A stretch of DNA of 59,695 bases from an uncultured Oscillospiraceae bacterium. GTDB taxonomy: Bacteria; Bacillota; Clostridia; Oscillospirales; Acutalibacteraceae. Positions 18,998-20,718 of this stretch are shown in pieces. Where the stretch lies: the NCBI GenBank assembly GCA_949283785.1, contig CASDTR010000033.1, positions 1 to 59,695 on the forward strand, in the 5' to 3' direction. Each line of letters starts with the position of its first letter. Within the stretch, counting starts at the first letter, position 1. Below the pieces are notes generated by a model. It saw only the letters and a program-made list of their open reading frames with translations. It was not told where the DNA came from and searched no databases. A program made the position numbers and the translations under genes.

Positions 18998-19297
18998 TTA
19001 AATTTGTTTAAAATTACTCTCAAAATATCCGCGCTTTCTTGCGGGATTCCTTCTCTCCTCGAGCTTAAAATCGACAATTATCGTGTCGTCACCTATGACC
19101 TTTATGCTCTTCCACGGGATAACTATATCCTCTTCCCTGCCCAAAAGTCCCAGCGCCTTCGGCCGTCCGTAAACTATTACGGAGACAAGGTCCCCCGTTT
19201 CGGTGTCGATTTCGATATCGCATATTCCGCCCATTTTCATGCCGTTGGAAACATTGATTATCTCCTTATTCCTCAAATCTGTTATCTTGCACTGCAT
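18998..19297 (-). CDS. YlmC/YmxH-family PRC-barrel protein
   Basis: A 99-residue PRC-barrel-like protein (MQCKITDLRNKEIINVSNG, then GREEDIVIPWKSIKVIGDDTI). It matches the YlmC/YmxH group found throughout spore-forming Clostridia and Bacilli and annotated as sporulation-associated. Its molecular role is unknown. I chose the ATG at 19295-19297 because GGGGAGG lies just upstream. It lies about 70 bases downstream of the antiporter gene. Confidence 0.85.
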   Translation of the reverse strand: MQCKITDLRNKEIINVSNGMKMGGICDIEIDTETGDLVSVIVYGRPKALGLLGREEDIVIPWKSIKVIGDDTIIVDFKLEERRNPARKRGYFESNFKQI

Positions 19298-19368: not shown

Positions 19369-20547
19369 TCAGTCCTTGGAAAGCAGCTTTTTATGCAGCG
19401 TATCTATAAGGAAGGCTCCCAAGGGAGCAGTTATGAAAATGGAGAGCACCGCAACGGTGAGCACTGCCATACCGCAGCTGAGTCCCATGGAGAGGGGTAT
19501 GGCTCCGATTGCCGCCTGAACGGTAGCTTTGGGAATATAGGAAATCATGCAGAAAAGCTTTTCTCTGCCGCTGAGCTTCGTGCCCAGCATACACACGAAT
19601 ACCCCCGCAATTCGGAACATCAGCGCTCCCAGCACCACAAGCACCGCCGAAACGCCGTACTTCACTGCATAGGACGGGTCGGCGCAGGCTCCCACCAGCA
19701 CAAACAGAAGTATTTCCGCCGCTACCCACAGCTTATTATATTTTTCCGAAAGCCTTTTTGCAAGGAAGTTGTAATCCCTGAATATGGCAAGACCCATGGC
19801 CATGACGGCGATAAGCCCGGAAAGAGGAAAAATCCCTTTGAGGCTGTTTTCGGCCTGTATAAACAGAAATGAAAAACTCAAAAGGATAAGGATTTTCAGA
19901 GAGTCCCGCATATGCACTTTCCTGAAAAAGCGGGAAAGGAGAAAGCCCATGACGACTCCCAGAAGGGCTCCGCAGATTATGGAGACGGGAACCTGCAAAA
20001 ACACTGTCGGAGAAAATGTGCCCTGCTGAGCAAGGGACGTAAAGGAGGTAAAGAGGACTATTACAAACACGTCGTCGGCGGAGGCTCCCGCGAGGATAAG
20101 CTGAGGTATGCTCTTTTTCGTGCCCCTGCCCTCCTCCATGATTTTGATTATTCTGGGCACTATTACGGCGGGGGAAACTGCCGCTATAACGCTGCCCATT
20201 ATGAGGGCTTCCGTTAAGGTTATCCCCAAAAGCTTCGGCGCCAGAAGAGCCGTGCCCGCTATTTCAAAGAGCGCCGGCACAAAGCACATCATTATGGCCG
20301 GTCTGCCCACCTTTTTAAGGTCGCCGATATTAAGGGACAGCCCCGCCCGCATCAGGATTATAACCAAAGCCAGCTGCCTTAAATCGGCGGAGATGCCGAG
20401 AATGGATTCGTCAATGAGATTAAGGGCGTAAGGGCCCAAAACTATGCCCGTCACTATCATACCTACAAGCGACGGCAAATGGAGCTTTTTGAAGATTCCT
20501 CCCAATATCATTCCCAGAAGAAAAATAAGCGCAAGACTTGTTAACAT
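19369..20547 (-). CDS. Na+/H+ antiporter (CPA family) under a fluoride-riboswitch-like leader
   Basis: A 392-residue transporter of the sodium/hydrogen exchanger fold with about 12 membrane segments. The motif GASADDVFVIVLF near residue 152 holds the paired aspartates typical of electrogenic CPA2-like exchangers, and MGSVIAAVSPAVIVPRI near residue 118 forms the partner segment. The leader matches the fluoride (crcB-motif) riboswitch. Such riboswitches are known to precede some Na+/H+ antiporters besides Fluc and CLC-F, so a role in fluoride tolerance is likely. No fluc gene is in the window. Whether it moves fluoride or corrects proton/sodium balance is open. Confidence 0.88.
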   Translation of the reverse strand: MLTSLALIFLLGMILGGIFKKLHLPSLVGMIVTGIVLGPYALNLIDESILGISADLRQLALVIILMRAGLSLNIGDLKKVGRPAIMMCFVPALFEIAGTALLAPKLLGITLTEALIMGSVIAAVSPAVIVPRIIKIMEEGRGTKKSIPQLILAGASADDVFVIVLFTSFTSLAQQGTFSPTVFLQVPVSIICGALLGVVMGFLLSRFFRKVHMRDSLKILILLSFSFLFIQAENSLKGIFPLSGLIAVMAMGLAIFRDYNFLAKRLSEKYNKLWVAAEILLFVLVGACADPSYAVKYGVSAVLVVLGALMFRIAGVFVCMLGTKLSGREKLFCMISYIPKATVQAAIGAIPLSMGLSCGMAVLTVAVLSIFITAPLGAFLIDTLHKKLLSKD

Positions 20548-20571
20548 AAAACACCCTCCGTTAAGTCGCAG

Positions 20572-20686
20572 AAAAAGAAAAAGCTGACAATTTCTGCGTA
20601 AAATTCGCAGAAGTCATCAGCATTAAAATCAGATTAAAATGCGGTTTCGGATTATATCCGCGGGAGAACCTCATTCCCTCTACCGA
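20572..20686 (-). promoter_or_regulatory. Fluoride riboswitch (crcB motif) with overlapping terminator
   Basis: Read on the minus strand it has the crcB-motif landmarks in order: GGGAATGAGGTTCTCCC (20662-20678), GCGG...AAACCGC (20641-20660), a P3 hairpin GCATT...AATGC (20620-20642), and GCTGATGACTTCTGC (20607-20621). The last element is shared with a terminator, TTCTGCG...CGCAGAA inside TCAGC...GCTGA arms, followed by TTTTTCTTTTT. Fluoride binding should stabilise the aptamer and prevent termination. Assignment is from memory of the consensus; a covariance-model search would settle it. Confidence 0.85.
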
Positions 20687-20689
20687 AAG

Positions 20690-20718
20690 AGTGTATCACA
20701 TCCGAAATATTTTTTCAA
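20690..20718 (-). promoter_or_regulatory. Candidate promoter of the riboswitch-antiporter unit
   Basis: TTGAAA at 20713-20718, a 17-base spacer and TACACT at 20690-20695 on the minus strand, just before the aptamer. It overlaps the MATE gene stop, so the antiporter can be transcribed independently. Confidence 0.6.

Follow-up and report, generated by a model that had tools for sequence, protein, structure and literature searches.

A predicted fluoride-ON riboswitch before an animal-NHA-like antiporter gene that is rare beside Fluc

In the published view, export through Fluc or CLC-F is the main way in which bacteria withstand fluoride, and antiporters assist in pH control (PMC11139923). The locus studied here raises the question of what a fluoride riboswitch does in front of an antiporter gene and whether such a gene accompanies an exporter or stands in for one. 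The window, that is, the whole stretch of 59,695 nucleotides that was analyzed, is contig C33 of a draft genome of 2.41 Mb (71 contigs, 97% complete). An initial annotation, made from the letters of the window, had proposed that a fluoride riboswitch controls a Na+/H+ antiporter rather than a fluoride channel and that this antiporter is part of fluoride tolerance.

Aptamer, terminator and antiporter gene

The elements of the locus are listed below, 5' to 3' on the minus strand.

20690..20718, minus: promoter-like site TTGAAA, 17 nt, TACACT, with TG before the -10 (extended -10); 9 of 12 consensus matches
20601..20687, minus: fluoride riboswitch aptamer RF01734 (crcB motif); Rfam cmscan, 42.8 bits, E 1.5e-8
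20662..20678, minus: P1 stem-loop, GGGA (20678-20675) with TCCC (20665-20662); covariance model and alignment
20672-20668, minus: 5' pseudoknot strand GAGGT, inside the P1 loop
20648..20660, minus: extra hairpin CGGAT / ATCCG between P1 and P3; alignment of 20 leaders
20620..20642, minus: P3 stem, GCAT (20642-20639) with ATGC (20623-20620); covariance model
20610..20614, minus: 3' pseudoknot strand ACTTC, also part of the terminator 5' arm (switching overlap)
20571..20621, minus: intrinsic terminator, stem 20621-20583 (GCTGATGACTTCTGCG / CGCAGAAATTGTCAGC) and then TTTTTCTTTTTC; folding and leader comparison
20554..20559, minus: likely ribosome binding site GGAGGG, 6 nt before the ATG; sequence
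19369..20547, minus: antiporter gene, 392 aa, PF00999, NHA-like CPA2 type, with E95, D158-D159 and R312; ATG at 20547

The crcB-motif blocks had been read in order on the minus strand, and the Rfam covariance model confirms them with a significant match at 20687..20601 that spans the full model (positions 1 to 64) and exceeds the gathering cut-off of 34 bits. RF01734 was the sole family at or above its gathering threshold in the whole window, and this match was the single one in a search of the draft genome in which 150 of 220 first-look candidates were scored. We then compared the leaders of 20 orthologues. The aptamer pairs were held in 97.2% of the cells, and 7 of 16 pairs had changed on both sides, two of them in the pseudoknot; pairing fell to 38 to 60% when the partners were slid, and one of five covariation measures (further pair types) was matched by 102 of 500 shuffles. 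The individual elements behaved as follows. (i) The pseudoknot GAGGT/ACTTC was paired in 99% of the cells, and 2 of its 5 pairs had changed on both sides; its 3' strand lies in the conserved 3' block of the aptamer, GCTGATGACTTCTGC, in which ACTTC pairs with the P1 loop. (ii) The P1 pairs are invariant and are therefore neutral as to covariation, and the 2 of 4 P3 pairs that were counted are both invariant. (iii) In the extra hairpin between P1 and P3, the relatives vary in sequence yet keep the pairing: all five counted pairs had changed on both sides, and 91.9% of the cells were paired. In another genome of the same genus, the core blocks, the pseudoknot and the terminator are intact and nearly identical, and the antiporter there is 91% identical. 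A chance or decayed aptamer was rejected on the basis of score, covariation and conservation, and the window's copy is predicted to bind fluoride.

The last crcB block had also been described as one arm of a terminator just before the antiporter gene. This was borne out by a stem at 20621-20583 of 15 pairs with one mismatch, followed by the T run TTTTTCTTTTT (-20.1 kcal/mol), which is present in the minimum-energy fold too (z -2.91); the stem is not among the sites listed by a consensus terminator scan. A hairpin precedes a T run in all 20 orthologous leaders (-20.0 to -26.9 kcal/mol). In the aligned stem, 88.5% of the cells were paired, compared with 85.5% in shuffles and 32 to 53% when slid; the covariation is weak, the 5' arm being constrained by the aptamer. 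The conserved 3' block of the aptamer is this 5' arm, 53 nt upstream of the antiporter gene, and since the pseudoknot strand is common to both structures, aptamer and terminator are mutually exclusive. An aptamer and a terminator that share a pseudoknot strand are the published architecture of fluoride-ON switches (PMC11077080), and overlap with a terminator was the basis on which the ON direction was proposed in PMC2864571; because the window's leader matches this architecture, it would probably act as an ON switch too. The promoter-like site extends over the stop codon of the MATE gene upstream and is present again in the leader of the same-genus genome; it is a consensus match only, from a scan that gave 11 such sites in 3.3 kb compared with 4.1 expected.

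The antiporter matched the Na_H_Exchanger family PF00999 over residues 12 to 379 with 154.5 bits (cut-off, 26.2). All of the 20 orthologues matched the family at an E value of ≤0.001; none of the cut-offs was passed in an NCBIfam search of the window's product. Its closest solved relatives are NHA2 structures, with an E value of 6.3e-38 for the single protein and of 1.2e-56 for a profile of 20 members against NHA2 (7b4l), the next group following at 2.1e-14. The NHA2 ion-site residues are conserved, in that E95 and R312 were found in 145 of 145 aligned rows, in which two genes stand twice, and D158 and D159 each in 144. The exception, L223, has GN at the latter positions, possibly a trimming or frame artefact. 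The protein carries the conserved TM3 Glu, an Asp-Asp pair at positions 6-7 of the motif and an Arg at its position 8, which have been described as marks of NHA2 and of animal-NHA-like CPA2 proteins (PMC8850199, PMC6181914), and we place it in this group by residues and best match, rather than by a tree of characterized CPAs. Since the NHA2-type residues are kept and NHA2 has been reported to carry out electroneutral Na+(Li+)/H+ exchange (PMC8850199), cation/proton exchange is the default expectation for the window's antiporter. On the protein tree, its nearest named homologues are from Caproiciproducens and Clostridium, and the window's class is therefore probably Clostridia.

The gene is flanked upstream by a MATE efflux transporter gene (PF01554, TIGR00797; 20715-22058, minus) and downstream by a gene for a YlmC/YmxH-type sporulation PRC-barrel protein (18998-19294, minus). 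The gene after the latter encodes what we take, from its sequence, to be ribosomal protein S2.

Linkage of riboswitch and antiporter across genomes

The linkage was surveyed in a sample of 200 genomes of the window's family (family sample) and one of 389 genomes of its class (class sample; 398 asked). The family sample contained a riboswitch match in 34 genomes, above the cut-off in 28, and an antiporter (E ≤ 1e-60) in 20, with the riboswitch directly upstream in 20 of 20. At the class-sample threshold of E ≤ 1e-40, there were 67 antiporter copies in 63 genomes, and 51 copies (50 genomes) were preceded by a riboswitch match on the same strand, the coordinate gaps ranging from 34 to 341; one of these 51 matches, in G211, is just under the cut-off. 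By identity band, a riboswitch was in front of 32 of 38 copies at ≥50%, 16 of 26 at 40 to 50% and 3 of 3 below 40%, and 10 of the 16 copies lacking a match in front fall in the 40 to 50% band.

The reverse view, from the riboswitch, bears on a general statement in the initial annotation, namely, that fluoride riboswitches mostly precede Fluc and CLC-F genes and sometimes Na+/H+ antiporter genes. The second part agrees with the literature: Na+/H+ antiporters are stated to rank directly behind the exporters among the genes that follow the riboswitch (PMC11139923), genes for K+ and Cl- transport were named when the motif was first described (PMC2864571), and C. difficile is reported to have a fluoride riboswitch before a CLC gene plus an "NhaP-type" antiporter gene (PMC11477304). 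The pairing seen in the window is thus of an already known kind. The first part did not hold in the class sample, in which a survey that covered Fluc and the antiporter, CLC-F being outside it, found a riboswitch before the antiporter gene in 50 of 85 genomes with a riboswitch match (76 over the cut-off) and Fluc in 19, with both in 1 and neither in 17.

Among the best 80 of at least 565 named homologue loci, 60 had an Rfam-grade riboswitch within 300 nt upstream. Several other leaders show weaker or partial features: both blocks are visible in the leaders of L128, L159, L171 and L193, below the cut-off; L127 and L176 have only the 3' block and the terminator, and L133 has only a terminator-like remnant. 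Hosts of the pair in these 80 loci include Anaerotignum, Terrisporobacter, Clostridium, Agathobaculum, Blautia, Parabacteroides and Jeotgalibaca; with hosts ranging from Anaerotignum to Parabacteroides and Jeotgalibaca, some spread of the pair between lineages is likely.

An antiporter tree was built from 141 of 146 rows, rows of ≤340 residues being left out and L332, L333, L126 and L323 dropped as duplicate or short, after the riboswitch state of L324 and L329 (false positives) and of L131 and L132 (missed) had been corrected by hand. The 24 rows lacking a riboswitch are scattered over the tree, requiring 20 changes, a number as low in 29 of 500 shuffles. Such scattered absence, together with the modest score of 42.8 bits, could be taken to mean that the window's leader is itself a decayed riboswitch that has lost its response to fluoride. 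We consider this very improbable, given that the core blocks, pseudoknot and terminator are all intact and almost unchanged in the same-genus genome.

Several loci depart from the simple arrangement. At L119 (Anaerotignum neopropionicum), the antiporter follows its riboswitch at a distance of 2.2 kb, and the stretch just before the antiporter resembles a universal stress protein by eye. L136 (Firmicutes bacterium UBA6113, a MAG) has riboswitch matches 233 nt before and ~0.5 kb after the antiporter match. Four loci of class family f43 (L322, L324, L329 and L330) have no riboswitch and sit directly behind another gene, whose product, on inspection by eye, has a similar YPFE motif at its end; this suggests a different operon and control for the f43 homologues. 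L054 (G152:C1:65000-82000) contains six fluoride riboswitch matches within 5 kb (70863-75851; one below the cut-off); the genes around them encode a universal stress protein, four proteins with a MutS_V domain, an MFS transporter, a GNAT enzyme, a pyrophosphatase and a CoA-binding Rex-like protein, and its genome has eight fluoride riboswitch matches in all.

Fluc and CLC homologues in antiporter genomes

The initial annotation had noted that no fluc gene lies alongside. This is correct and extends to the genome: Fluc (PF02537) had no match anywhere in the window's draft genome, in a search that was positive in 10 of 14 control genomes, and none in the same-genus draft genome G123. The class sample points in the same direction. 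Fluc was found in 75 of its genomes and the antiporter in 63, and the two occurred together in 1 (G567), compared with 12.1 expected (Fisher p 1.4e-5, a value that is too small, since shared ancestry inflates the significance at the genome level). Counted by genus, 50 class-sample genera had the antiporter, 52 had Fluc and 6 had both, compared with 11.7 expected (p 0.036), and in 5 of the 6 shared genera, antiporter and Fluc were in different sampled species. A genus-level p value of 6.8e-6, for which only genomes with both genes counted as shared, mixes two units and was set aside. Taken by itself, the family sample shows a weak contrast (Fluc in 1 of the 20 genomes with the antiporter versus 25 of the other 180), and a swap was seen there within one genus, g54 (G053 and G172). 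Pooling the two samples gives 79 distinct antiporter genomes, of which two, G029 and G567, have Fluc.

The antiporter was also considered as a neighbor of Fluc or CLC genes, and this was rejected: tblastn gave no CrcB match in 80 named loci of 3.3 to 6.2 kb, with 122 queries, 8 of which had been chosen as CrcB on their motif (one or more of the 8 being doubtful). At L136, a weak CLC-like match (383-847; 25 to 27% identity, E ~1e-5) lies on the other strand, ~1.4 kb before the riboswitch.

The same comparison was extended to CLC proteins, typed by signature motifs, in 50 antiporter genomes: the 20 of the family sample and 30 of the 63 of the class sample, which were picked by hand and do not include G567. 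Published CLC-F signatures are GNNLI or GMGLI, GREGT or GREGV, and GEVTP (PMC11139923), and a CLC-F with these signatures was found in none of the 50 genomes. The protein at L304 in G407, with the intermediate signature GNDLV / GREGA / GEVIP, was left uncounted as CLC-F; at L106, L307 and L310, the typing took a neighboring ORF, and the CLCs of G441 and G234 are of the GTN / GEIVP type from their motif lines. Small second fragments and subthreshold CLC matches of the family sample were left untyped, none of them in antiporter genomes. Neither Fluc nor any CLC match was found in 21 of the 50 genomes (9 of 20 in the family sample, 12 of 30 in the class sample), some of which absences may be false, because some genomes are incomplete drafts.

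Since the antiporter is rare beside Fluc, and 21 of the 50 genomes checked have neither a Fluc nor a CLC match, it may itself export fluoride, with or against protons, as a third exporter type that is annotated as a cation antiporter. There is a precedent for such mislabeling, since the riboswitch-linked EriC was misannotated as a chloride transporter (PMC7266159); Drosophila Nha1 has been proposed to be an H+-Cl- cotransporter (PMC9174904). However, the cation/proton machinery of the window's protein is unchanged, with the Glu, the Asp-Asp and the Arg of NHA2 all kept; NHA2 is reported not to carry chloride (PMC8850199), and a model of human NHA1 showed no chloride-favoring charge change (PMC9174904). 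We therefore regard fluoride export by the antiporter as unlikely.

The window's genome does contain one CLC homologue, on contig C61 (L002:1267-2568). Its best solved relative is the CLC-F 6d0j (E 3.3e-50), and the next chain, which is not a CLC-F, follows at 1.7e-10. This similarity, and the assignment of antiporters to pH homeostasis in a review (PMC11139923), would fit a scheme in which the antiporter is a pH-homeostasis accessory and the C61 protein, which has no riboswitch, is the real exporter; if the C61 protein moves fluoride, the organism has an exporter after all, outside riboswitch control. Four observations speak against this scheme. (i) The signature of the C61 protein, GTNSI / GREGA / GEIVP, differs from that of CLC-F. 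(ii) The 21 antiporter genomes described above have neither a CLC nor a Fluc match. (iii) The group of CLCs with GTN / GREGA / GEIVP, present in ~60 of the 200 family genomes, shows no significant enrichment alongside the antiporter (9 of 20 genomes that have it versus 51 of 180 others, p 0.13) and is found in 9 of 26 Fluc genomes. (iv) An accessory would be expected beside Fluc, yet the antiporter is rare there. An accessory role with C61 as the exporter accordingly appears improbable to us.

Proposed mechanism and comparison with known systems

Built on the aptamer, the terminator, their overlap, the conserved linkage and the rarity beside Fluc, all of them established at the level of sequence, the reading that we favor is that a fluoride-ON transcription switch before an animal-NHA-like cation/proton antiporter gene probably constitutes a stand-alone fluoride defense that replaces Fluc or CLC-F. 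Counting against this reading are the CLC on contig C61, the weak contrast in the family sample, the 16 of 67 class copies lacking a riboswitch match in front, the two genomes with both genes and the reported C. difficile arrangement. When fluoride is absent, the terminator stem would invade the pseudoknot and transcription would stop. When fluoride is present, the aptamer would hold the pseudoknot, the terminator would be blocked, and the antiporter would be made. By swapping a monovalent cation for protons, the antiporter would then reset the pH difference on which HF entry and the trapping of fluoride depend, fluoride being known to enter as HF and to be trapped as F- by this difference (PMC11139923). 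The same review sees antiporters as restoring the internal pH, as helpers beside the exporters Fluc and CLC-F. A helper role for Fluc fits poorly, because the antiporter mostly occurs where Fluc is absent, and it most likely acts alone, through cation/proton exchange that sets the internal pH and HF trapping. The useful direction of exchange calls for caution, since proton expulsion would raise the cytoplasmic pH and trap more fluoride. For the part in fluoride tolerance that the initial annotation had assigned to the antiporter, the conserved linkage and the rarity beside Fluc are circumstantial support; the role itself, like the ions carried, is what the antiporter's sequence and context would predict.

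The consequences depend on what the antiporter does. If it suffices alone, either fluoride is beaten by the balance of protons and cations or an exporter is hidden under the label of a cation antiporter. A bolder and quite speculative proposal, which we rate as doubtful, is that NHA-like antiporters under riboswitch control evolved independently as a third stand-alone type of fluoride-resistance transporter, taking the place of Fluc and CLC-F across the window's class, and that at least some of them, if not all, move fluoride itself. We found no report that joins the window's antiporter group to NHA2 or describes its rarity beside Fluc in the open-licence literature, most subscription papers being outside it, and as far as this search reaches, the pattern of an antiporter in place of Fluc is new.

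Fluoride-riboswitch-linked Na+/H+ antiporters were reportedly described by Baker et al. in 2012 (via PMC11139923). The gene class and the riboswitch class behind which it stands are equal in both cases; what differs is that the window's antiporter, by residues and best match, falls within the NHA-like branch and that in the class sample it seldom occurs together with Fluc. In its leader, the window resembles the crcB riboswitch of Bacillus cereus, which has the same aptamer blocks, the same pseudoknot and a terminator arm that shares the pseudoknot strand (PMC11077080), but the window's switch is placed to drive an antiporter gene instead of Fluc, and its copy has the added hairpin between P1 and P3, the pairing of which is conserved in 20 relatives. 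In its protein, it resembles NHA2 (SLC9B2; 7b4l), the best solved relative, with which it shares the Glu-Arg pair and the Asp-Asp of the ion site, whereas the window's antiporter has Tyr at the position of Trp456 of NHA2 and is a bacterial protein of 392 aa encoded behind a fluoride riboswitch. With Fluc (CrcB) and CLC-F, finally, it has in common that they stand behind the same riboswitch class elsewhere, as in G170 and G136, but the antiporter belongs to a different protein family.
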